This document shows positions 13,749 through 60,680 of a DNA stretch of 64,000 nucleotides, piece by piece. The stretch is from Methanoregula sp. (lineage in GTDB: Archaea; Halobacteriota; Methanomicrobia; Methanomicrobiales; Methanospirillaceae), in the NCBI GenBank assembly GCA_028679075.1, contig JAJRCF010000010.1, positions 1 to 64,000 of the forward strand. Direction: 5' to 3'. The notes under the pieces are model-generated. The model saw nothing but the letters and a program-made list of their open reading frames with translations. It searched no databases and was not told the origin of the DNA. The translations under genes and the position numbers were made by a program. Positions within the stretch are counted from its first letter, which is position 1. Every line of letters starts with the position of its first letter.

Positions 13749-13924
13749 AAGGGTCGAAGAACCCTTCGGGTTCTTCTCCTGTCTCATCTCTGATGAGATT
13801 CGATTGCCGAACCCAAAGGATTCATCAGATTCACGAGCGTGAGATGAACTCTTTTCGGGCCTTCGATGAAAAGGGTCGAAGAACCTTCGGGTTCTTCTCC
13901 TGTCTCATCTCTGATGAGATTCGA
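13749..13924. repeat. Hairpin array A (two 54-55 bp copies)
   Basis: Two near-identical copies at 13749-13803 (55 bp) and 13871-13924 (54 bp) differ only by a deleted C. Each holds a GAAGAACCC/GGGTTCTTC hairpin (perfect 9-bp stem, 3-base loop at 13756-13776 in copy 1) and a TCTCATC/GATGAGA hairpin (13782-13798). In copy 2 the first stem loses one pair. The array sits between the end of rimI and the start of the permease gene, both minus strand. Related arrays occur at 39.72-40.1, 59.28-59.5 and 60.52-60.7 kb. Confidence 0.85.
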
Positions 13925-13928
13925 CATC

Positions 13929-14414
13929 CTAAAACCGGAACCACTTCATCATGACAAGGGCGTCCTCGCCATTCGCGTAATTCTGGTCAATGCCAAACAC
14001 CGGGCGGTATCCCATGCGCTGGTAGAACTGTTGTGCCCCGGTATTGGAGACCCGGACTTCCAGCTGGACCCCGGTGGCCAGTTCCAGCGCACACTGGTGC
14101 TCGACACGGTTGACGAGCAGCCGTGCAATCCCCCGACGACGGTAACGGGGGCTGACCCCGAGGTTGCAGAGGTGCCCGTAGATATTCTCCCCGGTATCCT
14201 CAAGGCCGCCCACGACAAAACCCACGACAGCCCCGTCGCAGACAGCAACAAAATAGGTGGTCGGGTAATAGGCCAGGGCTTCGAGAAATACTGACTGCCC
14301 CCACGGGTCGATGAACGAGTCCTTCTCAATGGCAACGATCGCCGCGATATCGGAGGGCATCGCTCTCCGTATCAGCGGCAGCGGGTAAACAGCGAGATCG
14401 TGCGGGCGGATCAT
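13929..14414 (-). CDS. rimI: GNAT N-acetyltransferase, RimI-like
   Basis: A 161-residue GNAT-fold acetyltransferase resembling RimI/archaeal Ard1, which acetylates protein N-termini. The acetyl-CoA loop is visible as RYRRRGIARLLVNRV (about residues 90-104; the R/Q-x-x-G-x-A motif), preceded by the beta-4 strand IYGHLCNLGVSP. The C-terminal half NTGAQQFYQRMGYRPVFGIDQNYANGEDALVM is typical, with the conserved FYQRMGY. The ATG at 14414 opens just before the first GNAT strand (PLIRRAMPSDIAAIVAIE). Downstream, its transcript would run directly into hairpin array A. Assignment to RimI rather than another protein acetyltransferase is moderately certain. Confidence 0.82.
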   Translation of the reverse strand: MIRPHDLAVYPLPLIRRAMPSDIAAIVAIEKDSFIDPWGQSVFLEALAYYPTTYFVAVCDGAVVGFVVGGLEDTGENIYGHLCNLGVSPRYRRRGIARLLVNRVEHQCALELATGVQLEVRVSNTGAQQFYQRMGYRPVFGIDQNYANGEDALVMMKWFRF

Positions 14415-14528
14415 CGGTAACCTCCGTTAACACTTTTTTTTGCAACAGTAGTCATGAGCGCCCGGGATTCATAGAAGTTACCCTGCGAGGTCAAAAGACA
14501 CGCGAGCCCGGCCGGGCGAAGTCTTCGG

Positions 14529-14536
14529 TATATAAG
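14529..14536 (+). promoter_or_regulatory. TATA box for the DUF1015 gene
   Basis: TATATAAG lies 56 bases before the ATG at 14592, giving a leader of about 30 bases at normal archaeal spacing. Confidence 0.55.
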
Positions 14537-14591
14537 GGATCAGGCACAATTATGAGAGCACTAAAAGTATGTCTTCGGGACGGTGTCAGGT

Positions 14592-15857
14592 ATGGTGAAA
14601 ATATATCGTTTTTCAGGAGTGCGGCCCGTGCCGGAAGCTGCCCCGGAGATCGCGGCAGTACCGTACGATGTGGTGACGGCGGACGAGGCGCGTGCCATTA
14701 TCGCGAAAAACCCGAAGAGCTTCCTGCGGGTGAGCCGCCCCGATGCCGAACTCCCGGACATCCCCCCGCACGATGACCGCGTGTACCAGCGGGCACGGGA
14801 GATGCTCGTTTCTCTCGAACAGAAGGGCCTCTTAAAAAAGGACAGCACTCCCGGCATGTACCTGTACCGGGTGCAGCAGGACGGGGATACGTTCCTTGGC
14901 CTCTGCTGCTGTCTTGACGTGGACGATTACCGGAACAACTCTATCCGCCGCCACGAACTGACCCGCTATGACAAGGAAGAGGACAGGACCCGGCACATCG
15001 AAACCGTCAAAGCCCATAACGGGCCGGTTGTGCTCCTCTACCGTGACGACGAAGGATTATTCTCCTTTATCGAATCCCAGGTTGCACACAACAAACCACC
15101 GGTTGCCGAGGTGCATACAGGACAGGGTGCCATCCACCAGATATTCAGGATCGCGGACCCGGAGGTGCTTGCCGTGCTCGAACGCCGGTTTGCCTCGGTT
15201 CCCGCCCTCTACATCGCGGATGGGCACCACCGGGCAAAAGCCTCGGTGAACCTGGCAGACCGCATCATTGCATCGGGCAGGAAACCTGACGACGAAGTCT
15301 GCCGGTTCATGGGTGTAATCTTTGCCCACGACCGGGTGAAGATCCACGGCTACAGCCGCCTTCTTTCCGATCTCGGTACGCATACTCCGGAGTCGTTCCT
15401 CAAAAAACTGGGAGACTGTTTCACGGTGAAACCGTACGGGGATGTCGATGGCCGCGGGTACAATATCCCGCCCACGATTGCGGATCCCGGAGCGTATCAC
15501 GTTGTCCACCTGTATCTTGCCGGTACGTGGTACGAATGCACCCGCCCGAGGGCTCCCGGTGCAACCCCGCTTGAAGCCCTTGACGTTGCCGTGCTCCAGA
15601 AGCACGTGCTTGAAGACATGCTCGGGATCACCGACCCCCGGGGCGATGCCCGGCTCCAGTACCTTGGCGGTGCCCGCCCGGTTGCAGACCTTGAAAAACT
15701 CGTGGACGATGGAACATACCAGCTTGCGTTTGCCATGCAGCCGGTACAGGTGGAGACCGTCCTCTCTATTGCGGATGCGGGTGGTATCATGCCACCGAAG
15801 TCCACGTGGTTTGAACCAAAACTACTGAGCGGGCTCGTCATTCACTCTTTTGACTAG
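14592..15857 (+). CDS. DUF1015 family protein
   Basis: A cytosolic protein of 421 residues matching the DUF1015 family, found in many archaea and bacteria without an established reaction. Characteristic phrases are the N-terminal FSGVRPVPEAAPEIAAVPYDVV, YLYRVQQDGDTFLGLCCC, RRHELTRYDKEEDRTRHIE, the His-rich LYIADGHHRAKASV (about 230) and the C-terminal GGIMPPKSTWFEPKLLSGLVIH. The ADGHHR and NPKSFLRVSRP-like segments resemble ParB/serine-kinase-like folds, but I would not assign a function. The ATG at 14592 fits the family start; a GTG nine bases upstream is less likely. hisG follows after 57 bp in the same direction. Confidence 0.85.
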   Translation: MVKIYRFSGVRPVPEAAPEIAAVPYDVVTADEARAIIAKNPKSFLRVSRPDAELPDIPPHDDRVYQRAREMLVSLEQKGLLKKDSTPGMYLYRVQQDGDTFLGLCCCLDVDDYRNNSIRRHELTRYDKEEDRTRHIETVKAHNGPVVLLYRDDEGLFSFIESQVAHNKPPVAEVHTGQGAIHQIFRIADPEVLAVLERRFASVPALYIADGHHRAKASVNLADRIIASGRKPDDEVCRFMGVIFAHDRVKIHGYSRLLSDLGTHTPESFLKKLGDCFTVKPYGDVDGRGYNIPPTIADPGAYHVVHLYLAGTWYECTRPRAPGATPLEALDVAVLQKHVLEDMLGITDPRGDARLQYLGGARPVADLEKLVDDGTYQLAFAMQPVQVETVLSIADAGGIMPPKSTWFEPKLLSGLVIHSFD

Positions 15858-15914
15858 GCACAATTTTTTTGCCACCCAATCCTTTATTGTGTTTTTACAG
15901 CGATTTTGTATGGT

Positions 15915-16787: not shown

Positions 16788-16920
16788 TTTTGAGCGGGAA
16801 TTTTTTGTTTCTCCGGTAATCTTTTTTTCAAATATTTCTGTATTATATTCCTAATTAAAAACCCAATCCAATCACTATTGTTTCAAATACGGATAATTGA
16901 GGCAGAAAATAAAATGAACC

Positions 16921-16931
16921 AATATTTATAT
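16921..16931 (+). promoter_or_regulatory. TATA box for the pilin-like operon
   Basis: AATATTTATAT lies about 45-53 bases before the ATG at 16974. The region 16790-16930 is strongly AT-rich compared with the preceding hisG gene. Confidence 0.5.
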
Positions 16932-16973
16932 CAGTTCTTCCCTCAATAAGCCATTAGGGACAAAGGAAACACT

Positions 16974-19976: not shown

Positions 19977-19978
19977 AG

Positions 19979-32324: not shown

Positions 32325-33710
32325 ATGATGCAGGATTACCAGCAGGAACTCATTGTAATTCGGGACCTCCTCAAGAAGAACCCGAACGGGATGAGTGTAA
32401 CCGATATCTCAAAGGCGTTGAAAAAGAACAAAAATACCGTAGGGAGATATCTCGACATCCTGCTCATCTCCGGACAGGTCGACATGCGGACCTACGGCAT
32501 GGCAAAAGTATACTCTCTCTCCCAGCGGGTCCCGCTGTCCGCCATGCTCAGTTATTCAAAAGAACTGATCATGGTACTGGATAACGAGTCCCGGATCATT
32601 GATGTCAATGGTAATTTTTTAAGCCTCCTACAGCTCTCGCGTGAAGAGACGGTTGGAAAGAATATCACCTACCTGCAATCACCCGAAGTGGATGTCCATG
32701 AATTTCTGGACAGTATTACCTCAGACCGGCTGAACAGCGAGAATACCATCACCTTCAAAGTGAGGGGCAAGGGCGAGCGGATCTTCCACCAGAAGTGCGT
32801 CCCGACCGTTTTCGATGATGGGAGAAAAGGGATCACGCTGATCCTTGAGGATGTCACGGAGCACATCCTTGCTGAACGGGATGTCCGGGAGAGTGAGGAG
32901 CGCTTCCGGATGATGGCAGAGAACATCCGTGACGGGCTCATCATACTGGAGAACGGCAAAACCGTGTATGCCAACAACCGCATCTCAGAGATCACCGGGT
33001 ATTCCAACGAAGAACTCTGGTCAATGAATACCCTCACTATCATCCCATCGGAATGCCATGATGAAGTAGCAAAGCGGATACGGGATATCGAAACCCATCC
33101 TGACAAGCCAAGCGATATCCAGATGTGGATCATCCGGAAGGATGGTGAAAGGAGGTTCGTCTATCTCCGGTTCAGTGCAGTACGGCACAGCAACACACTC
33201 TATAATTTCGTGATATTCACCGATATCACGGAGCTCAAGGCGCAGGAGGCGAAGGTGCGGGAAAGCGAGCAGCGGTTCCGGATGATGGCTGAGAACATCC
33301 AGGACGGGCTCATCATTGCAGAGAACGATCGGGTCGTGTACACGAACCGCCGTATCAACGAGATCTCAGGGTATTCTGAGGAAGAGATGGCTTCGATGGG
33401 ACTCCGTGGGACCATTATCGTGGAAGATGTATCGGAGATCGCCGCGGCAGGTATTATCCCCCATTCGGAGAAGACAAAAATTGAGGAGATTGTCAGAAAT
33501 GTCCAGCCGGATTCAGGTACACCCGGGGAATTCAGTGTCTGGATACGACGCAAGGATGGCATGCCACGGTTTATCCAGGGGAAGGTCACCGCGGCCCGTC
33601 ACGGGGATGTAACCAGTACCTACATCACTATCGCAGATATCACGGTGTTTGCAGAGCGGGAGAAGAACCTGCGTGAGCGGATCGATGCGCTCCAGGAAAT
33701 CCTGCATTAA
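32325..33710 (+). CDS. HTH protein with three PAS domains, no kinase
   Basis: A 461-residue cytosolic protein. Residues 1-65 form a winged helix (GMSVTDISKALKKNKNTVGRYLDILLISGQVDMRTYGMAKVYSLS). Three PAS/PAC units follow at about 75-190, 193-310 and 317-440. The second and third are close duplicates, both starting ESEQRFRMMAENI or a near variant. There is no histidine-kinase, GAF or receiver domain, so it looks like a one-component sensor-regulator. Such HTH-PAS proteins are abundant in Methanomicrobiales. It lies upstream of the COG1361-RND genes in the same direction, so it may regulate them; this is inferred. Two adjacent ATG codons give start alternatives at 32325 and 32328. Confidence 0.85.
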   Translation: MMQDYQQELIVIRDLLKKNPNGMSVTDISKALKKNKNTVGRYLDILLISGQVDMRTYGMAKVYSLSQRVPLSAMLSYSKELIMVLDNESRIIDVNGNFLSLLQLSREETVGKNITYLQSPEVDVHEFLDSITSDRLNSENTITFKVRGKGERIFHQKCVPTVFDDGRKGITLILEDVTEHILAERDVRESEERFRMMAENIRDGLIILENGKTVYANNRISEITGYSNEELWSMNTLTIIPSECHDEVAKRIRDIETHPDKPSDIQMWIIRKDGERRFVYLRFSAVRHSNTLYNFVIFTDITELKAQEAKVRESEQRFRMMAENIQDGLIIAENDRVVYTNRRINEISGYSEEEMASMGLRGTIIVEDVSEIAAAGIIPHSEKTKIEEIVRNVQPDSGTPGEFSVWIRRKDGMPRFIQGKVTAARHGDVTSTYITIADITVFAEREKNLRERIDALQEILH

Positions 33711-39136: not shown

Positions 39137-39673
39137 TCACTCGTCTTTCTCAGCATGCTCCACGATGGTTGGCAGGCCGGCCTCCCCCATCTGCCAGAGC
39201 GTGAGCGTGGCGCAGGAACGGATGATCTCGTCTGCATCGTTGAGCCGCTGCCGGAGTGGTTCCACGGCGGGCACCCCGATCCGGCAGAGGGCCTGCGATA
39301 AAAATCCCCGCAGTTCCCGGTCATCGCTTGCCATTGCCGCGATCAGCGATTCGATTGCCGGGATGCCGATCTCGCCGAGGGCGGCGGCAGCGTAGCGCCG
39401 GAACTCCCGGCTGTCGTGCTCTCGCATCGCGACGATCAGCGGTGCGACCGAGGACTCCCCAATCTTCGCGAGCGCAATCGCTGCGTACCAGCGCCGGTCA
39501 TTGTCCCCTGCTTCCGCGAGGGCCGCAATGAGGGGGGCGATTGCAGGCTTCCCGGTCTCCCGTAGGTGCGAGATCGCTTCATGCCGCTCTTCGATCCGCG
39601 GTGAGGCGAGGGCCGCAATCTGCTCCCGGATCTCCTCCCCGCTGACCTTCATCTCTCCACCGGTTTCTGTCAT
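39137..39673 (-). CDS. HEAT-repeat (PBS-lyase type) protein
   Basis: A protein of about 178 residues built almost entirely of five short HEAT/PBS-lyase repeats of about 31 residues (for example AIAPLIAALAEAGDNDRRWYAAIALAKIGE, then APLIVAMREHDSREFRRYAAAALGEIGI). Such proteins act as binding scaffolds and have no catalytic site. The start is uncertain: 39673 (MTETGG) is given, with 39652 (MKVSGEE) and 39703 as alternatives. Hairpin array B lies immediately upstream, so the array may form part of its leader. The last repeat ends TLWQMGEAGLPTIVEHAEKDE. Confidence 0.83.
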   Translation of the reverse strand: MTETGGEMKVSGEEIREQIAALASPRIEERHEAISHLRETGKPAIAPLIAALAEAGDNDRRWYAAIALAKIGESSVAPLIVAMREHDSREFRRYAAAALGEIGIPAIESLIAAMASDDRELRGFLSQALCRIGVPAVEPLRQRLNDADEIIRSCATLTLWQMGEAGLPTIVEHAEKDE

Positions 39674-39723
39674 ACCTGACAGTGATCTGCGCACTCCGCC
39701 CACTTGGCTTTTTCCATTTCCGA

Positions 39724-40079
39724 ACGGTCATCAGACCGTGAGGACGAGAAGAATTGCAAAGCAATTCTTCGAAGGTCGGCTGATGCCTCCCTTCTCATTG
39801 TCGTGGTTCAAAGATTTCTGTTGAAATCTTCTCTTCCTCAAGGTTCTGACGGACCTTTCGGATTCTGATGAACCACTCCAACTTCGAAGTCCGAGCAGTC
39901 ATCAGGCTGCGAGGAGGAGGAGAACGCATCAGCGTTCTTCGAAGACCCTGCGGGTCTTCTCGTTGTCGTGGTTCTGATGAACTACTTCAACTTCGAAAAG
40001 CCTGATGGCTCTTCTCGCGGTTCGGGGTTCGAAGATTTCCTGCGGAAATCTTCTCTTCCTCAAGGTCCTAGCGGACCTT
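39724..40079. repeat. Hairpin array B (largest of four)
   Basis: A chain of about ten short hairpins between the DUF1646 gene end and the HEAT gene start. Clear ones are: 39724-39739 (6-bp stem, loop ATCA); 39748-39770 (10-bp stem, loop AAA); 39811-39830 (8-bp stem); 39921-39938 (7-bp stem, loop ATCA); 39941-39959 (8-bp stem, loop TGC); 40031-40053 (10-bp stem, loop TGC); 40062-40079 (7-bp stem, loop TAGC). Between them lie linkers such as CTTCTCATTGTCG and CTCTTCCTC that recur in the other arrays. No open reading frame explains it. Confidence 0.88.
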
Positions 40080-40139
40080 TCGGATTCTGATGACCCTCCC
40101 CGATTCGAACCCCGATACAGTATCAGAATCACGTGATTA

Positions 40140-41258
40140 TCACACGAATCCCAGCCAGGCCGGGACAAAGAGGATGCCAAAGAAGAAAAGCATCATTGCC
40201 ATGCCAAGCGGGATGCCGACCCGTGCCCATTCGCTGCTGCTGATACTGAGCTTGCAGGCAGCGATGATGTTGGGGATGTTGCCGGGGATGAGCATCCCTC
40301 CGGCAATAAGCAGTCCCATCAGGGCGCTCGTGATCTGCTCCAGAGAGAGGGCGGGGCTGATCTCCGCCGCGGCAAGGGTTGCGTTGTCGAGCACGGCCGA
40401 GACAATGTTGATCCAGTACAGTCCGGCCGACGGGATTGCGATGACATATTCGAGAATGATCGGCTTGAAGCCTTCACCGAGGAAGACGAGCGCCATGATA
40501 AAGAGATAGACCTTACCGGCCCGCAACAGGATTTCCCTGAGCGTTTCGCGCTCTACGATACACTCGAGTTTCTCGTCGCCCGTATGGCTGCGGGAGAAGA
40601 GAACGACCCCCACGACCCCGAGAGCGAGGATGGAGGGGATGATATAGAGTGCAAGGCGGTCGAAGAGGAAGGTGAAACCTGCATAGTAGGGAGCGCCCGA
40701 GAGTTTGGAGACCACGATCGTAGAGAGGGGTTCACCGAGCGGGGTGAGGCCGGCGCCAAGCCCGATAGAGAAACAGGAGACCACTGTAATCTCCACCTTG
40801 GCCTTCCTGACAACCGGCAGGGCGTTGATGATCTCGACAAGGATGATCGCAGCAAGGATCGCGGAGATGATGCTCGACACCAGGCCGAGGATAACGATGA
40901 GCATAAAGACGATCAACCTGAGCGAGAAACGGTCAACCATCCCAACGATCGCTTCCTGCATCCGGTGGTGGAAGAAGTAGATCAGGAGGCCGAAGACGAG
41001 GACGATCTGGACGATCCCGATCGGGATCCCGAACAGGCTCGTGATCTGCAGCGGGGAGAGAAGCGCCTCTTTTATAATTTCCAGGCTCCAGCCGGTCTGC
41101 TCTCCGGGGATGACAATCAGTCCTGCAAGTGTCAGGGCCGCCACACCGCAGGTAAAGAGAAAGACCTCGAGGTTGCACTCGATGCATTTCACCCGGAACG
41201 GGAGTATGAGCACGAGCGCGAAGATGATGAGCAGCCCAAGGTTCGCAAACACGTCCAT
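40140..41258 (-). CDS. DUF1646 family membrane transporter (IT superfamily-like)
   Basis: A 372-residue membrane protein with about ten helices, matching archaeal DUF1646 proteins, which resemble ArsB/NhaD and citrate ion transporters. Two re-entrant-type motifs are visible: SIGLGAGLTPLGEPLSTIVV (about 165-185), with the TPLGEP typical of this superfamily, and the inverted partner ALMGLLIAGGMLIPGNIPNIIAACKL (about 320-345). These are probably the substrate or cation sites. Substrate unknown; cation or organic anion transport is the usual prediction. Its 3' end is at the start of hairpin array B. Confidence 0.85.
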   Translation of the reverse strand: MDVFANLGLLIIFALVLILPFRVKCIECNLEVFLFTCGVAALTLAGLIVIPGEQTGWSLEIIKEALLSPLQITSLFGIPIGIVQIVLVFGLLIYFFHHRMQEAIVGMVDRFSLRLIVFMLIVILGLVSSIISAILAAIILVEIINALPVVRKAKVEITVVSCFSIGLGAGLTPLGEPLSTIVVSKLSGAPYYAGFTFLFDRLALYIIPSILALGVVGVVLFSRSHTGDEKLECIVERETLREILLRAGKVYLFIMALVFLGEGFKPIILEYVIAIPSAGLYWINIVSAVLDNATLAAAEISPALSLEQITSALMGLLIAGGMLIPGNIPNIIAACKLSISSSEWARVGIPLGMAMMLFFFGILFVPAWLGFV

Positions 41259-41987: not shown

Positions 41988-43922
41988 ATGCTCCAGGCAA
42001 TGAAACGCATCCAGGTGATCGGGCCAAAGGATGAACTGGGCCGGGCAGTCGACCTGTTGTACCGGGCGGGCACCGTCCATCTCGAAAACGCACCGGAACT
42101 CATATCACGGGGCGAGATCTGCCTCGACCGTGTCAGGCAGGAGGAGGCCACGGCCGTTGCCGAAGTCCTCGGGAAGACCAGCGCTATCTTTTCCACCCTC
42201 CCTCCCATCGAAGATGATCCGGACCGCCAGGCACAGCTCCGGGCATCTCTTGAAAAAAAGACTCACGCTGAGCTTGTTGAACGGGCGCGGGAGATCATCC
42301 ATACCCTCGAGACAACGACACGGGAGCTGGCGGCAAAGAAAAGCGAGCTTACGCTCTCGATCACAACGCTGAACCGGTACGAGAAGGTACTTGATATCAT
42401 CCAGCCGGTTGAGAAGGAACTGCCGGTACTGGAGGGATTCGAGGTCACGATCCTCCTCATCCAGGAGGAGCACCGGGACGTCCTCGCGCTGATCAAGAAA
42501 GAACTGGACACGATCACCGGCGACCGGTTCGAGATGACCGCAACAACGGTCGATGCCGATACCCTCGCTGCCATCATGGTCTTTCCCAAAAAGTACTCCG
42601 AGGAGATCCATTCCTTTATTTATTCCGTGAACGTGAACGAGGTGAGGCTCCCGAAAGAATACTCAGGCCGGCCGTTTTACGAGATGTATGCCCTGCTCGC
42701 AGACAGCAGGATGCGGGCCCAGGACGAGATCGCCCGTATCGATGCAGACCTGCTCACGTTCTCAAATACGTGGTACCAGGAACTTGTTGTCATCAGAAAG
42801 CAGCTTGAGAATATCCATGGGGAACTCGGGGAGTACCGGAACTTTGGGATCTCGGAGTACACGTTTGTCATCATGGGCTGGATCCCGAAAAAGTACCTCA
42901 AAAAGACTGAACAGGCCCTGCACGATACCTTTGGCGACCGTGTGATCGTCTGCGAACTCCCGACAACGGGAAAGGATATGGAAGATGCCCCGGTCTTCTA
43001 TGATAATCCGTTCTGGGTGAAACCGTTCGAGGTCATCATGCAGCTCGTCTCCCCGCCACGGTACCGCGAGGTCGATCCGTCCCCTGTCCTTGCGATCTTC
43101 TTCCCGCTCTTCTTCGGCATCATGGTCGGCGACATCGGGTACGGGCTCGTTATCCTCGCCTTCGCGCTCATTATCCGTCACCGTTTCGCAGCAATCGCGT
43201 TTGCAAAAAGCCTTGCCGACATCCTGATAATCTCGTCAATACCGACAATCATCTTCGGGTACCTGTTCGGCGAATTCTTCGGGGACCTCGGGGAGGTGAT
43301 GGGCTGGCTCCACCCGGTGCACATCCTCGGCATCACCTGGAACCGCGTGGAGGCAATGATCCCGATGCTGATCCTCGCCATCGCGATCGGGGTTATCCAC
43401 GTGGTCCTGGGTCTCCTCATCGGCATCCGGAACGCGGTGATCACAAAGAGCCGCAAGCACCTTTATGAAAAGTGCGGCATGCTGATGATGATCCTGGCAC
43501 TCGTCATCCTGATGGCGATGCTCGGCGGCGTTATTTCGGATACCGCGATCTACCCGGTAGTCGCCCTCATGGTCATCGCCCTGCCTCTCATCCTGATGGG
43601 GGCGGGGGTGTTCGGCACAATCGAGGTGATGGGCACGGTCGGTAACATCCTCTCGTACGCCCGGCTGATGGCAATCGGCATGGCCTCGGTGATCCTCGCG
43701 ATGGTGGCAAACGAGCTCGGCGGGGCATTCGAGTTTGCCATCATCGGGATCATCGTTGCTATCCTGCTGCACGCACTCAATATCGTGCTCGCGATGTTCT
43801 CCCCTTCGATCCACTCGATGCGTCTCCATATCGTGGAGTTCTTCTCGAAGTTTTACGAAGGGGGCGGGATGAAGTATAAACCGTTCCGGAAAAATGCGGA
43901 TGCAGAAGGGGCGGGGGAGTGA
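41988..43922 (+). CDS. ahaI: A-type ATP synthase subunit I (a-subunit)
   Basis: The 644-residue membrane stator that holds the half-channels for H+ or Na+. Residues of about 1-340 form the cytoplasmic arm that contacts the peripheral stalk, and the C-terminal 300 residues contain about eight helices. The region FFPLFFGIMVGDIGYGLVILAFALI and the helix YARLMAIGMASVILAMVANELGG carry the conserved Arg and polar residues that face the c-ring (subunit K). The end HIVEFFSKFYEGGGMKYKPFRK is typical. The start is ATG 41988, with ATG 42000 (MKRIQVIG) an alternative. The gene is followed by a palindromic terminator-like spacer. Confidence 0.95.
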   Translation: MLQAMKRIQVIGPKDELGRAVDLLYRAGTVHLENAPELISRGEICLDRVRQEEATAVAEVLGKTSAIFSTLPPIEDDPDRQAQLRASLEKKTHAELVERAREIIHTLETTTRELAAKKSELTLSITTLNRYEKVLDIIQPVEKELPVLEGFEVTILLIQEEHRDVLALIKKELDTITGDRFEMTATTVDADTLAAIMVFPKKYSEEIHSFIYSVNVNEVRLPKEYSGRPFYEMYALLADSRMRAQDEIARIDADLLTFSNTWYQELVVIRKQLENIHGELGEYRNFGISEYTFVIMGWIPKKYLKKTEQALHDTFGDRVIVCELPTTGKDMEDAPVFYDNPFWVKPFEVIMQLVSPPRYREVDPSPVLAIFFPLFFGIMVGDIGYGLVILAFALIIRHRFAAIAFAKSLADILIISSIPTIIFGYLFGEFFGDLGEVMGWLHPVHILGITWNRVEAMIPMLILAIAIGVIHVVLGLLIGIRNAVITKSRKHLYEKCGMLMMILALVILMAMLGGVISDTAIYPVVALMVIALPLILMGAGVFGTIEVMGTVGNILSYARLMAIGMASVILAMVANELGGAFEFAIIGIIVAILLHALNIVLAMFSPSIHSMRLHIVEFFSKFYEGGGMKYKPFRKNADAEGAGE

Positions 43923-45099: not shown

Positions 45100-46689
45100 A
45101 TGCCATTGAAGATTTTCTCACGAAAGACCGGCGCTTCCCGGAATTATTTATGGATCGCCGGAATTATCCTGGGTATCATCCTGTTAACCATGCCTGCCAG
45201 TGGAGACCCTCCACTGGGGGTAGGTTCTGGAACCTGTTTACCTGATTACTATGGGGACTGGAGATGCTGCACTGATCCATTGACTACATTGGATTGTATA
45301 CAATATCCATGCCTGAATTATTGCGATTATGAAAAATGCTGGGCAGATGATCCGGCCTCGCCTCCCATAAGCTGCTCCAACAGTAAAATCTTTCATCCCG
45401 GCTCTTCAGTTTCTTTTTATGGATTGCTGGACCATGTCAGGATAAATGATCCCAACGGAGATGAAATAGAAAATTCGCTGGTTATAGGAAGGACCGCATT
45501 TCCGGCCTGTCCCTCCGGTCCCGGGGTATACTCGGTCCATATGGATCTCGTCTTCTATGACTGTTATACCTGTGACGATACAACTCCAACACCGACTACA
45601 GAGCCCACGCAAACTATTACCCCGAACGTTACCCCGACACTGCCGGAGGCTGATTTCACGTTCCCCACACCAGGCAACAATGCCCCGATCGCCGATTTCA
45701 CCGCCAACCCGCGATCCGGCACCGCCCCGCTTACCGTCAGCTTTACCGACACGTCCACCCGTGCTCCGACCGCATGGTCGTGGTCGTTTGGCGACGGTAC
45801 GAAATCGACACTGAGGAACCCGACACATATCTATAACTCTGCCGGGACGTATGACGTGAGCCTGACGGCAGCAAATGTTTACGGGGGGGATACGGAGGTG
45901 AAGAATGGGTATGTGACGGTGACGCCGGGGCCGGAAGTGTTTACCTATGCGGTTACAAACGCGAATGGCGCGAAAGACCCGACAACGGGACGATGGGTGT
46001 GGAATGAAAATTCGAGATACGATATCGATGACATGAAAAATTATCTCGCAAATAATAATAACTGGAATAATGTTCACTGGAGGCAGTTGTTTTCAAAAGA
46101 AGGGGCTGCGGTAACCAAGGGAGTTCTCGAAACCACATCATCCGGGGAAGATTCACTAAATGACGCCACCCTTTTTTACCATACAGGTCATGGGGACTGG
46201 CCGGATCGCAACAGCCATTCCGATCTCAAGTTAGTAGATGAGGATTATAATAGCTATTCACTATCCCCCGATGAACTGCAGGGTGCATGGGGCGGCAACA
46301 ACAAATGGGTGATCCTTTCCACCTGTTTCTCATTACGTGATGAACGGTGGGATGGTGTTTTTGCATCTACAAGTGCAACCCACGGGATACTGGGATTCAA
46401 GACGGAGTCATATCCTCATTCGAATTTCATGCAGACCTTCTTTGAATACGCTAAAACAAAATCCGTGAGAGATGCATTCCTATCAACTGTACAAAAATTA
46501 GACAAAACAACCAGGGTTCCATCTCCGAATGGAGGGACGGAGCATTTGACTGCTGTAACAATATTTAGTAATCAAAATCAAGCAAAGAATGATTTTTTAC
46601 CAGGTTTTGGATCTGGTATTCAACCGGATGCAGATCCAGTGAGGCCATATAGAGTTCAATGGCCTCCTCAATCAGAGGGAGGAGTGTAA
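45100..46689 (+). CDS. Secreted PKD protein with caspase-like C-terminal domain
   Basis: A 529-residue exported protein. A signal sequence (about 1-34) is followed by a Cys-rich region (about 45-160, more than ten Cys), a Pro/Thr linker and one PKD domain (about 198-275; FTANPRSGTAPLTVSFTDTST with the WSFGDGT signature). The C-terminal domain (about 280-480) has LFYHTGHGDW (His at about 364) and, about 45 residues on, WVILSTCFSL (Cys at about 409). This His-Gly-His-Gly plus S-x-C arrangement is the catalytic dyad pattern of clan CD peptidases (caspase, gingipain, legumain). Activity is inferred. The next gene starts directly after its stop codon, so they are co-expressed. Confidence 0.82.
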   Translation: MPLKIFSRKTGASRNYLWIAGIILGIILLTMPASGDPPLGVGSGTCLPDYYGDWRCCTDPLTTLDCIQYPCLNYCDYEKCWADDPASPPISCSNSKIFHPGSSVSFYGLLDHVRINDPNGDEIENSLVIGRTAFPACPSGPGVYSVHMDLVFYDCYTCDDTTPTPTTEPTQTITPNVTPTLPEADFTFPTPGNNAPIADFTANPRSGTAPLTVSFTDTSTRAPTAWSWSFGDGTKSTLRNPTHIYNSAGTYDVSLTAANVYGGDTEVKNGYVTVTPGPEVFTYAVTNANGAKDPTTGRWVWNENSRYDIDDMKNYLANNNNWNNVHWRQLFSKEGAAVTKGVLETTSSGEDSLNDATLFYHTGHGDWPDRNSHSDLKLVDEDYNSYSLSPDELQGAWGGNNKWVILSTCFSLRDERWDGVFASTSATHGILGFKTESYPHSNFMQTFFEYAKTKSVRDAFLSTVQKLDKTTRVPSPNGGTEHLTAVTIFSNQNQAKNDFLPGFGSGIQPDADPVRPYRVQWPPQSEGGV

Positions 46690-48468
46690 ATGAAGAAAAT
46701 TCTGATTATTAGTATTATTGCTATTATCATCGTCACATTCCTGTCAGTGATGAGTGCTGGTTTTTACCAGCATGTAACCCAGACAACAGGTGATGATAAT
46801 CACTACAGTACTCCTGTGGTGAACCCCCAGACTTTTTCTGGAACTAACATCAATGTATTTTCCGCAACAATCGGGAATATTACCATTGATACAATTCTTC
46901 CTGAGTCCCCGAGGGACATACGTATTTATAGAGGATATTTCAAGGAGGGCGATCTCGTTGAAAATTATTCTGGATTACAATTTGATGAAATTCAAAATCC
47001 GGTTCCCAAAGATCAGGCGCCCGCGGTTGCAGAGCAAATTCTTACACAATATGGGGGTTTACCTTCAGATGCACAACTCCTGTATTCACTTGTAAACTAT
47101 GGGGAGGTCCTCAACCGGACAACTCATGAAATAATTGAAAGGATACCCACAGGGACCTTTGTATCCTGGTACAGAAATATCGATGGGATGAGAATTGAAG
47201 GAGACTCAGATATTATTCAGGTTACTTTGGGTGAGAACGGAACACCCACCCGGGTCTACAAAGCTTGGAGAACGTATGAACCGCTCGGCAACGTTTCACT
47301 CATTCCGGTGAGTAAAGCAATCGACAAGCTGGCTTCAGGAGAGGTAATAAATCCGTTTTCAGCAGAAATTTCGGATGTCAGTATCTATAAAATACAACTC
47401 GGTTATTACATTAAAGGACTAGAAGAACCTGAAGTCACCACTGAACCGATCTGGGTCTTTTACGGGAACGCATCCGGCAATTATGTACCGTTCTATGTCT
47501 ACGCCCGCCAGTTCTCCAACTTCACCGCCACCCCCGTAACCGGCACCGTCCCCCTTGCTACCAGATTTAACGATACCTCCAACGCCTCGCCCACCCGATG
47601 GCTCTGGGACTTTGGCGACGGCACGAACTCGACCGTGCGGAATGCAACGCACGTGTATAATATATCCGGTACCTACAATGTCACGCTCCGTGCGTGGAAC
47701 GATCTCGGGAGCGATACGATAACAAAAGTCAACTTTATTCGTGTATCCCCGCAGATATTTGGCGCTAACTTCACCGTCAGCCCCGCAACCGGTATTGCCA
47801 CGCTTCCCGTTCGGTTCACCGATACCTCCAACGTCTCGGCTACCCGATGGCTCTGGGACTTCGGAGACGGCACGAACTCGACCGTGCAAAATCCGACGCA
47901 TACATACGAATCGCCCGGCACCTACGATGTCACACTCCAGGTATCGAACAATTACGGGAACGATACGATCGTCAGACAATATACGGTTGAACCTTCTCTT
48001 AAAATCATCGCCAACGCAACCGTGTATGCGAATTACAGTTATTATGCCACAATCGATGAAACTGTTTGGTATAATGATTACATCTTCGGTGTTGTGGGAA
48101 ATTCACATTTTAATACAACCGCACCGGCTTGGAACTGGACCAAAACTTGGATCACATATGGCACTTACGGGTATTATCTGGAACAACTGAAAGTCGGCGA
48201 GACTTACTATCCAGCAACTCCGGGACCCAGCGACTGGCAGTGGGTGGTTGTTGATCGCCTCGACGAGGACGCTATCCAAGGCTGGGATTCCCAATTCTGG
48301 AGATGTCTTGGCGGATATGTTTCTCCCTACAACAGCACGTACTATCTCTGGTACGGTAACGTTACGGCCGCCGAGGAACATCGTTATGGCACGACAGATT
48401 GGCTCTACCCGAGCTATGAGAATGCGACGTATCTTGTAAAAATCGATGTGATCTGGGATGATGAATGA
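46690..48468 (+). CDS. Two-PKD surface protein with propeptide-like N-terminal region
   Basis: A 592-residue exported protein. An N-terminal helix (about 4-24) anchors or directs export. Residues of about 100-225 (VAEQILTQYGGLPSD, then VSWYRNIDGMRIEGDSDIIQVTLGENG) resemble FTP/PepSY-type propeptide domains with the W-R-x-I-D-G pattern. Two PKD domains follow at about 278-350 and 357-437, both with WLWDFGDGTNSTV. The final 150 residues match the end of the protein at 44113. The gene is coupled to the caspase-like gene before it. A propeptide-like domain next to a peptidase gene suggests inhibition or folding help; this is inferred. Confidence 0.8.
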   Translation: MKKILIISIIAIIIVTFLSVMSAGFYQHVTQTTGDDNHYSTPVVNPQTFSGTNINVFSATIGNITIDTILPESPRDIRIYRGYFKEGDLVENYSGLQFDEIQNPVPKDQAPAVAEQILTQYGGLPSDAQLLYSLVNYGEVLNRTTHEIIERIPTGTFVSWYRNIDGMRIEGDSDIIQVTLGENGTPTRVYKAWRTYEPLGNVSLIPVSKAIDKLASGEVINPFSAEISDVSIYKIQLGYYIKGLEEPEVTTEPIWVFYGNASGNYVPFYVYARQFSNFTATPVTGTVPLATRFNDTSNASPTRWLWDFGDGTNSTVRNATHVYNISGTYNVTLRAWNDLGSDTITKVNFIRVSPQIFGANFTVSPATGIATLPVRFTDTSNVSATRWLWDFGDGTNSTVQNPTHTYESPGTYDVTLQVSNNYGNDTIVRQYTVEPSLKIIANATVYANYSYYATIDETVWYNDYIFGVVGNSHFNTTAPAWNWTKTWITYGTYGYYLEQLKVGETYYPATPGPSDWQWVVVDRLDEDAIQGWDSQFWRCLGGYVSPYNSTYYLWYGNVTAAEEHRYGTTDWLYPSYENATYLVKIDVIWDDE

Positions 48469-54946: not shown

Positions 54947-55001
54947 GTATTGCGTTGGTTTTCGCCAGAAACGGTCTTCCACCACGTGAGTCTGCCGGCC
55001 A

Positions 55002-56202: not shown

Positions 56203-56268
56203 ATTTGAAAGCGTGTTGTTAACGTAAAATCAGGATATAAAAATCTCTTTTTCCTGTTGTGAACGGGT

Positions 56269-57432: not shown

Positions 57433-57437
57433 GGTGC

Positions 57438-58673
57438 TCACCACGTGGCACGGGAGAAGTCTGCCTCGCGTCCCAGCACCATCGTTGCATCGATCCCGAC
57501 CTTCACGTTCGTGCCGTCTTCTTTCTGGCACGGGTCGAGCGAGGAGCCGCGGACACCGGTGATCACCATGATGTCCCGGTCACCGCTCACCCTGGTTGCA
57601 ATCGCATACTCAACATCGTGAGGGTCCGTGGGGTCGATGTCCTCGTCCACGACCACTACATGCTTGAGCGAGGTGTGGGCAGCAAACGCGGCCATGATCG
57701 CATTCTTGCCATCACCCTGCGTACTCTTTTTGATCTGGATAACGGCATGGAGATACCCGCAGCCGCCCTTCGTGAGCACGACATTCTTCACCTGAGTCAC
57801 ACCCGCGACCGCCTTGTAGATCTTCGGCTCATAGGGGCAGCCCATCAGTACCTTGTGCTCGTCGCCACCTGGCAGGATCCCATGGTAGATGAAATCCGGC
57901 TTCGTGTACATGCCGGTGAACTCAATGATGTGCTGCATGCGAACCGGGTCATAGGTCCCGGTGATGTCGACAAACGGCCCTTCCTCGGTCAGGTCGCCCG
58001 TGATGAACCCTTCCAGCACGATCTCCGCATCGGGAACGAGCACGCCGTTGCTGCACCGCTTTACCCTGAGTTCCCCGCCCATCAGTTCCGCGGCAAACGC
58101 GAGCTCCATGCCGGTCGGCACCCGGGTGCAGCTCGCAAAGGTCACGGCCGGGTGTGTCCCGATGGTGACTGCAATGGGAAGCTTCTCGCCCTTCGCGAGC
58201 GCCTTTTTCAGCATCACGTGGGTGTGCCGGCCTTCAACGAGCCGGGCCGCGACCCGGTGGTCGTCAAGCACCTGCATCCGGTGGATTGATGCGTTCTCAA
58301 CACCGTCATAGCATGAGAAGACGATCCCGGAGGTGAGGTACTTCCCGGCGTCCTTTGGGAAGTGGTGCATGATCGGGAGCTTCGAAAGGTCCGCTTTCTG
58401 CATGGTGAGCGTCCCGTCTTCTCTCACCTTCCCGTTGAATTGAGCATCCGCAAGAGTGCTGACAATTTTTTTCTCATCGATACCGAGCGCGAGCGAGAGG
58501 GCGGCACGGTTCGCGGTAAGGTTCATGACGGCACGGTGGCCACCGATCTTATGGAAGAGGAGGAGCTTGTCGGTGCCGGCTGCCATCTTCGGTGCCTGCA
58601 TGTCAGCTGACACTTCTTCCTTTACATCGACAACGAGCCCTGCTTTCTGCATCTTTGCGATAAAATCACGCAT
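57438..58673 (-). CDS. Anhydromevalonate phosphate decarboxylase (UbiD family)
   Basis: A 411-residue UbiD-type decarboxylase that uses prenylated FMN; in archaea this clade converts anhydromevalonate phosphate to isopentenyl phosphate. Conserved regions include GTHPAVTFASCTRVPTGMELAFAAELMGGEL (about 170-200) and the acid triad region FEGFITGDLTEEGPFVDITGTYDP (the E-x-P-F segment). The C-terminal ATMVLGREADFSRATW is typical. The ATG at 58673 opens MRDFIAKMQKAG and overlaps the ubiX stop by eight bases. Order ubiX, ubiD, aconitase X supports the mevalonate role rather than ubiquinone synthesis, which archaea lack. Confidence 0.92.
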   Translation of the reverse strand: MRDFIAKMQKAGLVVDVKEEVSADMQAPKMAAGTDKLLLFHKIGGHRAVMNLTANRAALSLALGIDEKKIVSTLADAQFNGKVREDGTLTMQKADLSKLPIMHHFPKDAGKYLTSGIVFSCYDGVENASIHRMQVLDDHRVAARLVEGRHTHVMLKKALAKGEKLPIAVTIGTHPAVTFASCTRVPTGMELAFAAELMGGELRVKRCSNGVLVPDAEIVLEGFITGDLTEEGPFVDITGTYDPVRMQHIIEFTGMYTKPDFIYHGILPGGDEHKVLMGCPYEPKIYKAVAGVTQVKNVVLTKGGCGYLHAVIQIKKSTQGDGKNAIMAAFAAHTSLKHVVVVDEDIDPTDPHDVEYAIATRVSGDRDIMVITGVRGSSLDPCQKEDGTNVKVGIDATMVLGREADFSRATW

Positions 58674-59220
58674 CGTAACCGCTCCAGCGCTGAATGAGGT
58701 TGTGTTCGATCTCAAGGTGGTCGAGCACCCGGGCCACGACCATGTCCACGAGGTCATCGATCTTCTTTGGTTTGTGGTAGAAGCCGGGGCTTGCGGGCAT
58801 GATCGTCGCGCCCGCCTCCTCAGCAGCAAGCATATTCTTAAGATGGATCCTCGAGAGCGGCATCTCACGGGTGACGAGGATGCATTTCCGGTGCTCCTTG
58901 AGGCAGACGTCAGCGGTGCGGGTGATCAGGTTATCGGTATACCCGTTTGCCACCGCCGCAAGCGTCTTGGAACTGCACGGGATGATGACCATGCCGTCAA
59001 ACTTGTGCGAGCCGCTCGCGATCGACGCAAAGAGCTTGTCGTTTTCGTGGTAGGTTGCACTGAACCCCTCGAACGAGACGCTCTCGTGGAGGGCGATCTG
59101 CGCCGCAACATCGGAGACGATGATATGTACCTTTACGTCGTTACAGATCACTTCGAGAAGGCGGCGGGCATAGACCGCCCCGCTCGCACCCGTCACACCG
59201 ACAACAATCTCCTTTGTCAT
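58666..59220 (-). CDS. ubiX: Flavin prenyltransferase UbiX
   Basis: UbiX makes prenylated FMN, the cofactor of UbiD enzymes, from FMN and dimethylallyl phosphate. The 184-residue protein has the GVTGASGAVYARRLLEVI start, IPCSSKTLAAVANGYTDNLITRTADVCLKEHRKCILVTREMPL in the middle and a MPASPGFYHKPKKIDDLVDMVVAR end, all family hallmarks. The ATG at 59220 is chosen because it directly precedes the conserved MTKEIVVGVTGASGA; further upstream the frame enters hairpin array C. It is coupled to the decarboxylase gene that needs its product. Confidence 0.96.
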   Translation of the reverse strand: MTKEIVVGVTGASGAVYARRLLEVICNDVKVHIIVSDVAAQIALHESVSFEGFSATYHENDKLFASIASGSHKFDGMVIIPCSSKTLAAVANGYTDNLITRTADVCLKEHRKCILVTREMPLSRIHLKNMLAAEEAGATIMPASPGFYHKPKKIDDLVDMVVARVLDHLEIEHNLIQRWSGYDA

Positions 59221-59282
59221 TCCTGCCGCTCTCCTGTCGTATCTATGTCGGAGCGCGGGGGAAAAAGAGTTTGTGGATTCGA

Positions 59283-59480
59283 AAGGTCCGTCAGGACCTT
59301 GAGAAGGAGAAGAACCCGCAGGGTTCTTCGAGTTCCGACGCGTTCGAAGAGCCTGATGGCTCTTCTCATTGTCGAGGTTCTCATGAACCTCTCCAACATC
59401 GAAGGTCGGCTGATGCCTCCCTTCTCGTTTTTCGGGTCTGATGACCCTCGTAACTTCGACTTTCGAGTGGTTCGTCAGGA
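59283..59480. repeat. Hairpin array C
   Basis: Hairpins seen include 59283-59300 (7-bp stem, loop GTCA) and 59309-59329 (9-bp stem GAAGAACCC/GGGTTCTTC, loop GCA). Further units are GAAGAGCC/GGCTCTTC with loop TGAT, and GGTTCTCATGAACC, which varies from the TGATG loops elsewhere. The array lies between the end of the 59524 gene and the start of ubiX, in the same orientation as arrays A, B and D. Confidence 0.85.
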
Positions 59481-59523
59481 CCACGAGAACGAGAGGACTC
59501 TTCGGATCCTCTCGCGGTCCCGC

Positions 59524-59967
59524 TCACTTCTTCATCGGAGCAAAGAAACGGTACCGTACCTGCGCTTCCTCGATCTTCCTCGCGTGCGTGGGATTGAGGT
59601 CGCGGCGCGCCTCGATCACGAGCGTGTTGAGAATATTGTGGAGCCGGAGGGTATCATAGTCCTTGTCCTTGTAATCGTTGAGGAAGTCCAGCAGATCGTT
59701 TGTGCTCTTAAGCACTCCCGTGCACCCCACGAGATTGAGGCGGTTAAGGGTCATTGCAAGGTTCCTCTTTGCAACATCCATCTTGTAGGGGTCGCCTCTC
59801 GCAAGGTTCAGCTCGGTGATCGCGTTGAGGAGATCGGAGTAGACCCTGAACTTGACCGTACTCTCGTGCGCCCGGCGCTCTGCGTAACGGAGCTTCCATA
59901 CCGCAATCGCGATCACGACAACAACGACAATTACGCCGCAGATCACAACAACCGAGTCTTCAGTCAT
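59524..59967 (-). CDS. Membrane-anchored protein of unknown function
   Basis: A 147-residue protein with a single N-terminal helix (VVVICGVIVVVVVIAIAVWKL, about 6-26) and a cytosolic helical domain of about 115 residues (HESTVKFRVYSDLLNAITELNLARGDPYKMDVAKRNLAMTLNRLNLVG). No signature or catalytic motif is recognised. It is followed directly by hairpin array C and preceded 18 bp upstream by the lipoprotein gene. Confidence 0.72.
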   Translation of the reverse strand: MTEDSVVVICGVIVVVVVIAIAVWKLRYAERRAHESTVKFRVYSDLLNAITELNLARGDPYKMDVAKRNLAMTLNRLNLVGCTGVLKSTNDLLDFLNDYKDKDYDTLRLHNILNTLVIEARRDLNPTHARKIEEAQVRYRFFAPMKK

Positions 59968-59984
59968 CTGTTTTTCCTCCAGTA

Positions 59985-60470
59985 CTATGGATTTCGCTTC
60001 GCAGCAATGATGTCAACCTTGACCCGGTTGCCTTTCATGTCGATCTGGTAGGGGCCGGTGACATACATCGGGATCTGCTGGTGTTTTTCATAGCCAAACG
60101 TGCGTCCGAACCCGTACGTGTCCGTCTTGCCGGAATCCATGTGTTTCACGGTCATTTCGAACCAGCAGTACTGCGGGTCATCATTGAGAGGGAGGATCGT
60201 CAGGTCAATACCCCATGACGGGTCGTCCACCCGGAACTGCTCGCTGAACAGGTCCTTTTCGCTCTGGAGGGAATAGGACTTCTTGAGATAGTGATCGCCA
60301 AGGGTGAACGACGGCTGCGCTGTTGTCGCGGCAGCAGCGGCTGTCATGGCAGCAGTGACGGCGGGTGCGGCAGCGGTAGTCGTTGTCGCCGTACCCTGGC
60401 TCTGGGTACATCCGGCGATCATGACACCTGCAATAACCAGCACAAAGGCTGCAAGTACACTATATTTCAT
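59985..60470 (-). CDS. Secreted lipoprotein of unknown function
   Basis: A 161-residue predicted lipoprotein. The signal KYSVLAAFVLVIAGVMIAGC gives a lipobox with Cys at about 21. A Thr/Ala-rich linker (about 25-53) precedes a small beta-rich domain (about 54-161; SFTLGDHYLKKSYSLQSEKDLFSEQF and FEMTVKHMDSGKTDTYGFGRTFGYEKHQQIP). Function unknown. It lies 34 bp downstream of the end of hairpin array D's region and leads the 59524 gene. Confidence 0.8.
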   Translation of the reverse strand: MKYSVLAAFVLVIAGVMIAGCTQSQGTATTTTAAAPAVTAAMTAAAAATTAQPSFTLGDHYLKKSYSLQSEKDLFSEQFRVDDPSWGIDLTILPLNDDPQYCWFEMTVKHMDSGKTDTYGFGRTFGYEKHQQIPMYVTGPYQIDMKGNRVKVDIIAAKRNP

Positions 60471-60518
60471 ATGGGTGAGTGGTGGGGAACGGTAATATAA
60501 TAATTTTTATTTGTGCGA

Positions 60519-60680
60519 CTGGTTCATCAGAACCAGGAGCAAGAGAAGAACCCGTCAGGGTTCTTCGAAGGTCGGCTGATGCCACCCTTCTCATTGTCGA
60601 GATTCTGATGAACCTCTCCAACTTCGAAAAGCCTGATGGCTCTTCTCGCGGTTCGGGTCTGATGACCCTCACCGACTCGA
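60519..60680. repeat. Hairpin array D
   Basis: Five or more hairpins, including 60519-60536 (7-bp stem CTGGTTC/GAACCAG, loop ATCA) and 60545-60566 (9-bp stem GAAGAACCC/GGGTTCTTC, loop GTCA). An imperfect GAAGGTCGGCTGATGCC unit follows, then GGCTCTTC and GGGTCTGATGACCC units near the end. It lies between the end of the HD gene and the start of the lipoprotein gene, with the same element order as array C. Confidence 0.85.

Follow-up and report, generated by a model that had tools for sequence, protein, structure and literature searches.

The window analysed here is a 64,000-nt stretch of Methanoregula DNA in which four arrays of hairpins lie between minus-strand genes, as the first-pass annotation had placed them; their distances past the stop codon of the upstream gene are 3, 55, 18, and 29 nt. 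The repeat unit of the arrays is a two-hairpin element of about 53 nt on one strand, which reads hairpin A, nGA, hairpin B (GAAG...CTTC), and then GA; hairpin A is interrupted by a 2x2 internal loop that is nearly always GA/GA, a tandem G-A mismatch. A covariance model (R1) found 14 such units in the window; these, and one variant hairpin, are listed below.

13754..13803, minus strand: array 1, unit 1; R1 match 35.2 bits; GA hairpin; hairpin A is ATCTC-ATCA-GAGAT with a GA/GA loop, followed by GGA and hairpin B, GAAGAACCC-GAA-GGGTTCTTC
13876..13925, minus strand: array 1, unit 2; R1 match 31.4 bits; GA hairpin
39719..39772, plus strand: array 2, unit 1; R1 match 64.1 bits; made up of TCC-GA-ACGGTC-ATCA-GACCGT-GA-GGA, CGA, and a GAAGAATTGC hairpin
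39771..39794, minus strand: variant hairpin with a GA/GA loop, GAAGG-GA-GGC-ATCA-GCC-GA-CCTTC
39808..39862, minus strand: array 2 unit; R1 match 53.7 bits
39890..39942, plus strand: array 2 unit, a seed of model R1; R1 match 75.8 bits
39939..39990, minus strand: array 2 unit; R1 match 32.9 bits; TTCGAA junction in common with 39890..39942, spacing −4
40029..40084, minus strand: array 2 unit; R1 match 49.2 bits
59278..59331, plus strand: array 3 unit; R1 match 56.0 bits; A end adjoins a conserved region upstream of a flavoprotein gene
59344..59396, minus strand: array 3 unit; R1 match 45.0 bits
59399..59452, minus strand: array 3 unit, tandem, spacing +2; R1 match 27.9 bits
59462..59505, plus strand: array 3 unit; R1 match 30.9 bits
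60514..60568, plus strand: array 4 unit; R1 match 65.9 bits; A end adjoins an AT-rich promoter-like box
60565..60621, minus strand: array 4 unit; R1 match 36.2 bits; TTCGAA junction in common with 60514..60568, spacing −4
60624..60674, minus strand: array 4 unit, tandem, spacing +2; R1 match 31.5 bits

The first-pass annotation had described chains of short hairpins at all four loci, and these were present as assayed by hairpin coverage, pattern counts, and folding; the loops of 3–4 bases, the recurring linkers, and the paired stem changes that it listed were also real. It missed the two-hairpin GA/GA unit, in which many of the short hairpins and “linkers” are parts of a single longer hairpin that is interrupted by a GA/GA internal loop. 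The top six 200-base windows by perfect-hairpin coverage all lay in or at arrays 1–3. Coverage of array 4 was lower (0.20–0.245), below that of a non-array window at 43901; the fold of this array, at 60.5 kb, beat 200 of 200 shuffles, with z values of −6.2 as DNA and −6.4 as RNA. The pattern TTCGAAG...CTTCTC occurred above chance, with 7 copies in the window relative to 0.00 expected from 100 shuffles. Among hairpins with a 2x2 internal loop, GA/GA (TC/TC on the opposite strand) was found in 73 of 76 from the array regions and in none of 11 from the remainder of the window, and it was present in 22 of 24 hairpins when the regions were picked by BLAST alone. Ten GA/GA hairpins of the window fell within the four arrays and one elsewhere; five shuffled windows contained 0–2 each and the reversed window contained 4. 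The stems covaried: double-changed cells numbered 498, against 125 after shuffling, and the covariation score was 0.481, a value reached by 0 of 500 shuffles (which gave 0.135). The idea that the arrays are chance hairpins of GC-rich intergenic DNA is refuted by the pattern shuffles, the GA-hairpin counts, the covariation, and the GA/GA conservation, which together leave it virtually no probability.

Stem cells held more G-T than A-C, 22 to 5 in one count and 70 to 27 and 34 to 15 in another. The triloops were GNA in 53 of 72 cases, 48 of these 53 being closed by C; the commonest of the 240 tetraloops was ATCA (124), with 20 GNRA and no TTCG. In DNA, both GNA loops and tandem G-A pairs are highly stable; the latter are also common in RNA. 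As the commonest loop, ATCA, is neither GNA nor GNRA, the loop argument for DNA is a weak one. The sequence CTGATGA found in loops is similar to a C/D box, and we took it as a loop preference. A k-turn/L7Ae reading was dropped; the definition of a k-turn includes a 3-nt bulge, and the GA/GA loop is symmetric and has none.

The arrays had been proposed to belong to a dispersed intergenic family, and this was borne out by searches with the covariance model, which picked out 128 units (E≤0.01) in the genome of the window and 110 in G034, a complete relative. For counting we used 150 units (162 matches minus the weakest 12, which lay outside the alignment used for counts); 145 of these were outside called genes, and in 129 the linker between the hairpins consisted of any one base and then GA. 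The earlier statements that the arrays are neither coding nor CRISPR also held, the latter ruled out by units on both strands, variable stems, and the lack of equal-length unique spacers. A common orientation relative to transcription, claimed for all four arrays, did not survive: only array 1 was uniform, with arrays 2, 3, and 4 reading +−+−−, +−−+, and +−−, and across the genome the units in co-directional gaps were random in strand relative to the genes (45 same, 40 opposite). Nor was a genome-wide co-directional bias or a consistent UTR position supported: both neighbours were called for 72 of 83 clusters, and the gaps of these were of mixed type, 41 co-directional, 17 convergent, and 14 divergent. 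The mixed gaps and random strand therefore weaken the suggestion of transcribed UTR elements and favour DNA. In G034 the strands were split 55/55 over 79 loci around the chromosome, every tenth of which was occupied; at the relatives' loci more units ran opposite to the genes (30) than along with them (17). Outward A ends were adjoined by T5 in 18 of 98 cases and by A5 in 3 of 98; the T-run at gap 2 is the neighbour's promoter-like box, and T-runs were therefore not counted as target evidence. The array-neighbour proteins (141, one of them overlapping; 145 references minus L235:3170-3325, L237:228-500, L238:935-1123, L240:1068-1250, and L242:1143-1412, plus L236:731-1888) included at most three members of any Pfam family (TPR, PEGA, HepT-like, PAS), and no transposase occurred among the 25 most frequent of their 216 families.

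Neighbouring units often stood at exact spacings of −4, +2, or 9 nt. In the window's own genome, facing B ends were spaced at exactly −4 in 13 of 25 cases and tandem units at exactly +2 in 17 of 32; neighbour pairs comprised 25 of the +− type, 32 tandem, and 10 of the −+ type, and the ends of 40 arrays read +..− in 17 versus −..+ in 2. In the relatives, +2 spacing recurred in 11 of 23 tandem units and −4 spacing in just 2 of 11, and the inverted bias was slight (21 arrays: 5 +..−, 2 −..+, and 14 with like ends). Exact tandem repeats occurred in G034, as four equal-score units at 48-nt steps, and G031 had repeat steps of 223 and 227 nt.

Abundance was patchy. Seven of 36 genus genomes were rich in units and 17 had none; in a tree of 19 genomes the rich ones fell in two clades, and the poor G025, with 6 units, is the sister of the rich G000, with 94. 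Arrays were missing at three orthologous gaps in several relatives, which probably reflects gain rather than loss; by eye, these three empty sites gave no clear target duplication, and divergence there was high. A second archaeal family, f5, has a similar A-nGA-B-GA layout with different stems and tandem periods of 45–49 nt. Twenty of the 28 f5 loci were used in one analysis; the stretch read for one of these, L308, lay off its match. The element family belongs to Methanomicrobiales, in which at least one further taxonomic family has a counterpart of the Methanoregula element. Five bacterial matches to the DNA pattern (L175, L190, L194, L200, and L207) were dropped, having no GA hairpin at the match; viral contigs searched with a fixed pattern and a blastn comparison of array 2 with plasmids and phages gave no match. 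By its name, Fam_48_45_4, a satellite of Methanoculleus marisnigri, is a 45-nt repeat in Methanomicrobiales (PMC6749651), and the similar period is only a lead that it may be the f5 element. Titles and abstract openings of the open-licence literature yielded no paper describing the Methanoregula element.

As described for bacteria, REP, REPIN, and BIME sequences are short intergenic palindromes present in tens to hundreds of copies, and the arrays resemble them in their inverted and tandem groups, uneven distribution between relatives, and stems in which complementary residues alternate between copies and G-T pairs occur (PMC3733652, PMC6006769, PMC2817692). The Methanoregula element differs in being archaeal, in having two hairpins with a tandem G-A mismatch, and in lacking the REP foot, GT[AG]G being found in the 6 nt on the 5′ side of hairpin A in only 3 of 150 units. 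Tagged REP families have been described from bacteria, the best-known ones accompanying RAYT enzymes; CGTC-tagged palindromes are REP-like and were reported without a dedicated transposase (PMC3733652), whereas no conserved CGTC tag was seen in our units. The ends of IS200/IS605 elements carry subterminal single-strand hairpins used by the Y1 transposase, and in Archaea the Y1 proteins are given as IS200-type subclass 1.1 only (PMC6006769). In contrast to both these elements and RAYT-associated REPs, the window's genome and the six other rich genomes had no match to the Y1 family (PF01797), in a search that was positive in 5 of 14 controls and with some rich assemblies 81–90% complete; PF01797 was present in the poor genomes G001 and G018. 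Reverse transcriptase (PF00078) was found in none of the seven rich genomes and neither of two f5 genomes, in a search positive in 3 of 14 controls and in one poor genome, G018. The Y2 transposase (PF04986) gave no match in 18 genomes, nor in the control genomes. The rich-genome searches thus gave no support to a Y1 transposase or a reverse transcriptase as the mobiliser. MITEs, small non-autonomous repeats, are known in several archaea (PMC10969869); the arrays differ from them as modular dimers, in which neither a single pair of terminal inverted repeats nor a target duplication was recognised.

On balance, we consider it probable, with considerable reserve, that the arrays are a REP/BIME-like palindromic DNA element of Methanoregula, folded as a single strand and spread by a trans-acting enzyme. 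We propose that each unit would be recognised as a folded single DNA strand through hairpin A with its tandem G-A mismatch, the nGA spacer, and hairpin B flanked by GA, and that the enzyme would excise, copy, or join such strands and put them between genes. TTCGA(A) may be the junction, common to or abutting the unit ends, so that new copies would insert in register next to existing ones, and inverted and tandem arrays would grow in this way. Insertions in genes and promoters would be purged by selection, and survivors would remain behind stop codons. The element may be mobile and may have a function. More tentatively, it may represent an order-wide class of archaeal mobile single-stranded DNA elements in which the tandem G-A mismatch, not the sequence, is recognised by an enzyme family outside Y1 (RAYT/IS200); we regard this as possible, though doubtful.

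The missing Y1 transposase and GT[AG]G foot count against the REP/BIME-like reading, as do the possibility that slippage or recombination produced the shared junctions without a transposase, the compatibility of random strand with independent transcripts, and the weak −4 spacing and opposite strand lean in relatives. Confidence in this reading, and in the order-wide one, is lowered by the slight inverted bias of the relatives and by the predominance of ATCA among the loops. The excess of G-T over A-C would be explained at least as well by RNA, as G-U pairs in GA-strand stems, and the strong covariation and the tandem G-A pairs would also suit units that act as structured GA-strand RNA, with the two hairpins bound by protein or processed to small RNAs. 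We consider this rather unlikely, as units of both strands occur in one array with no strand bias to genes, the usual RNA loops are few, and an Rfam scan gave no match above the gathering score in the window and just chance-level matches (E 0.15 and 0.65) in 39600–40150.

The intergenic position, after stop codons and ahead of promoter-like boxes, and the occupancy of all tenths of the G034 chromosome, would fit DNA sites maintained by the host for the nucleoid, a topoisomerase, or insulation, comparable to gyrase-binding bacterial BIMEs; the very uneven abundance, even between sisters, implies that there is no general need for arrays, and we judge such a role distinctly unlikely. Satellite-like expansion without a transposase, by slippage and template switching with spread by gene conversion or recombination, would account for the exact tandems and the common +2 spacing. 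It does not explain how units came to be scattered over about 80 loci whose neighbours differ, and the G-A mismatches, which template switching would be expected to remove, are nearly invariant; we judge this origin very improbable.

Some methane-producing archaea thus carry at least 100 intergenic folded repeats per genome, built of hairpin pairs with a common G-A mismatch. They are an abundant archaeal counterpart of the tagged REP families, with a different mark and no known mobiliser. If mobile, they would point to a new methanogen enzyme that processes single-stranded DNA, and the rich and poor sister genomes offer a direct route to finding it.

The hairpin arrays of the window occupy four loci:

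13749-13924, array 1, a hairpin chain
39724-40079, array 2, a hairpin chain
59283-59480, array 3, a hairpin chain
60519-60680, array 4, a hairpin chain

The top six 200-base windows for perfect hairpins were contained in or adjoined arrays 1 to 3, and array 4 ranked lower in the same scan. The motif TTCGAAG...CTTCTC occurred seven times in the window, relative to 0.00 in 100 shuffles. The 60.5-kb array folded better than 200 of 200 shuffles both as DNA and as RNA, and its opposite strand, folded as RNA, gave a z of -5.2. No part of the window matched Rfam at gathering score. Other repeats in the window were a 134-nt direct repeat at 45694-47900, whose three copies (a reference copy and two others that share 69% and 80% identity with it) fall within two adjacent plus-strand reading frames, and a 73-nt stretch at 32883-33327, repeated at 84% inside one reading frame and probably a duplicated domain.

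The first-pass annotation described chains of short hairpins separated by linkers. The hairpins are real, but reading of the folds showed that several of these short hairpins and linkers together make up a single longer hairpin on one strand, with a symmetric GA/GA internal loop. In loci of the window's own genome this hairpin (A) is laid out as an outer stem of 3-4 bp, GA, an inner stem of 5-7 bp, a loop (mostly RNNA or GNA), and the returning inner stem, GA, and outer stem; 3' of it the recurring layout continues with nGA, hairpin B (GAAG...CTTC), and GA, giving a unit of about 53 nt. Of 150 units, 129 had NGA as the linker, and its first base could be any of the four. When GA/GA was required, the window yielded 11 hairpins, all but one from the four arrays, as compared with 0-2 in five shuffled windows and 4 in the reversed window. 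Hairpins with 2x2 internal loops carried GA/GA (TC/TC from the other strand) in 73 of 76 cases in array regions, whereas elsewhere in the window none of 11 did; the array regions were picked with a model that itself contains GA, and with regions chosen by BLAST alone the fraction was 22/24.

Covariation of the stems, claimed from the window alone, held when the units were aligned. A covariance model, R1, was built from 13 units of equal length, whose covariation score was 0.316 relative to 0.107 when shuffled (reached in 0/500 shuffles); pairs changed on both sides numbered five, a value equalled in 150/500 shuffles. The alignment of the 150 best of 162 R1 matches from own-genome loci, which is fitted to R1 and so biased towards it, and whose units are related to one another, gave 96.1% paired cells (75.2% shuffled), 498 double-changed cells (125 shuffled), and a covariation score of 0.481 (0.135 shuffled); none of these values was reached in 500 shuffles, and slid controls were far lower. 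We concluded that the hairpin structure of the units is under selection. Retention of the GA mismatch counts against template-switch repair of imperfect palindromes, which would perfect the stems.

In the own genome (2.50 Mb, 90% complete) R1 gave at least 142 matches at E<=1 and at least 128 at E<=0.01, lower bounds because 150 of 3029 candidates were scored; on fetched stretches of this genome it gave 162 matches at E<=0.01, from 72 sources. With genes called by a home-made hexamer finder, 145 of the 150 aligned units (83 clusters) either missed called genes altogether or overlapped them by 25 nt at most; gaps between genes make up about 13% of window bases. The 72 clusters with both neighbors called lay in co-directional (41), convergent (17), and divergent (14) gaps, the 11 clusters lacking one called flanking gene being left out. 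Arrays were closer to the 3' end of the upstream gene in 30 of 41 co-directional gaps. Uniform orientation relative to transcription, as proposed for the window, was not borne out: units in co-directional gaps lay on the same strand as the genes 45 times and on the opposite strand 40 times. In loci of relatives the strand was the same for 17 units and opposite for 30, and 6 of 86 units overlapped called genes. One predicted reading frame of a fetched stretch (L236, 731-1888; score 98) holds two units and is either a real gene or a mis-call. The complete genome of a relative, G034, contained 110 units at 79 loci; every tenth of the chromosome had some, and the two strands carried 55 each.

Neighboring units of the own genome kept preferred spacings: an exact 4-nt overlap sharing TTCGAA between B-end-facing units (13/25), exactly 2 nt between tandem units (17/32), and exactly 9 nt between A-end-facing units (4/10). 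Its 40 multi-unit arrays ran from + to -, with A hairpins outward, in 17 cases, in the reverse sense in 2, and with like ends in 21. In relatives the 2-nt tandem spacing recurred in 11/23, the 4-nt overlap in just 2/11, and array ends (n = 21) were +..- in 5, -..+ in 2, and like in 14; thus, of these genomes only the own one shows a clear inverted bias. At G034:C1:1882318-1882507 four equal-scoring units repeat every 48 nt exactly, which looks like a recent tandem expansion.

The order of the genes flanking three of the arrays was conserved in most genus genomes examined (18 searched). The DUF1646-HEAT gap, measured in 12 relatives as the distance between the last residue aligned in one protein and the first aligned in the next, is 436 bp with an array in the window; it was 16-49 nt without an array in five (G025, G034, G018, G021, G030), 68-123 nt with no full array by eye in five (G003, G011, G014, G029, G031), 467 nt with three R1 matches in G002, and 489 nt of other sequence by eye in G019. 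The gene 2-flavoprotein gap (306 bp with an array in the window; 14 relatives measured, with G025, G001, G014, and G015 left out) carried arrays in G034 (440) and G031 (773, partly N), a single A hairpin by eye in G019 (132), no array in nine relatives (90-104 bp), and no clear unit in the long gaps of G029 (384) and G002 (477). By eye, the array started at the same conserved base in the own genome and G034, G031, and G019, and the end units differed. The HD-gene 3 gap held arrays in the window (236) and G034 (509), and none by eye in eleven relatives (69-165 bp). No clear target duplication was recognized by eye at the orthologous gaps compared, where divergence is high.

R1 was run on 60 relatives with stricter filters than in the own-genome search and 97 candidates scored per genome. 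Among 36 genus genomes, 7 were rich (46-95 matches), 12 had 1-6, and 17 had none; three of 24 genomes outside the genus had 1-5. In a tree of four neighboring proteins from 19 genomes, in which G014 (49 residues) and G001 (206) were poorly placed, the rich genomes formed two separate groups, and poor G025 (6 matches) was the sister of the rich own genome (94). A fixed-pattern search of 84,980 species matched 50 stretches, 45 from Methanoregula or Methanomicrobiales assemblies; the five bacterial matches, having no GA hairpin at the match, were dropped. In f5, another family of Methanomicrobiales, BLAST with one local array gave 80 matches in G049, 85 in G059, and 5-19 in three others. The layout there is similar and the stems different, hairpin B often being GCACC...GGTGC. 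Once three listed units belonging to own-genome loci (L298 and L304) were set aside, GA and a hairpin B lay 0-2 nt downstream of 15 of the 21 distinct A hairpins, and B was itself followed by GA in 10 of the 15; 2x2-loop hairpins from 20 of 28 f5 loci were GA/GA or TC/TC in 17/23 distinct cases versus 4/27 in the flanks of the same loci. Tandem runs of the f5 version with a 45-49-nt period (G049:C11:60438-60632, G059:C9:1-146, and G059:C5:54211-54333) are possibly the satellite family Fam_48_45_4, which the available text of PMC6749651 reports for Methanoculleus marisnigri.

In DNA, both GNA loops and tandem G-A pairs have exceptional stability. GNA accounted for 53 of 72 triloops, 48 of them closed by C, and TTCG for none of 240 tetraloops, both of which speak for units that act as DNA, as do their random strand and the mixing of both strands within arrays. 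The other tetraloops included GNYA (31) and GNRA (20), but as most were ANNA (143, including 124 ATCA), loops alone cannot decide between DNA and RNA. Action as RNA is favored by the excess of G-T over A-C cells (22 versus 5 in 81 A hairpins; 70/27 and 34/15 in fitted alignments), although G-T wobble is the milder mismatch in DNA as well. We consider DNA the more likely of the two acting forms.

As for candidate mobilizers, the Y1 transposase domain PF01797 (RAYT/IS200) was absent from the own genome and six other rich genomes, and present in poor G001 and G018; reverse transcriptase PF00078 was absent from seven rich Methanoregula and two f5 genomes. The Y2 transposase domain PF04986 matched 0/18 genomes in a weak search, in which no control genome matched either. 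By Pfam, no gene family recurred in more than three of 141 array-side proteins of the own genome; HepT-like RNase domains matched three and PEGA domains three. The fixed pattern had no match in viral contigs, and array 2 had none in plasmids or phages.

Among known repeats, the available text of PMC3733652 describes GTAG- and CGTC-tagged palindromes with three dimer orientations and complementary stem changes, and GTAG-24 repeats of P. aeruginosa with GA residues unpaired at the fifth stem position. According to that of PMC6006769, canonical REPs have a 5' GT[AG]G foot, and Y1 proteins in Archaea belong to subclass 1.1 only. The available text of PMC12306157 counts generic intergenic palindromes in the genomes of six archaea, with Methanomicrobiales not among them, and that of PMC10969869 lists archaeal MITEs. 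Relative to REP/BIME, the Methanoregula element works alike but differs in two defining features, the foot and the RAYT; we have filed it among the palindromic repeats, as a variant of that kind.
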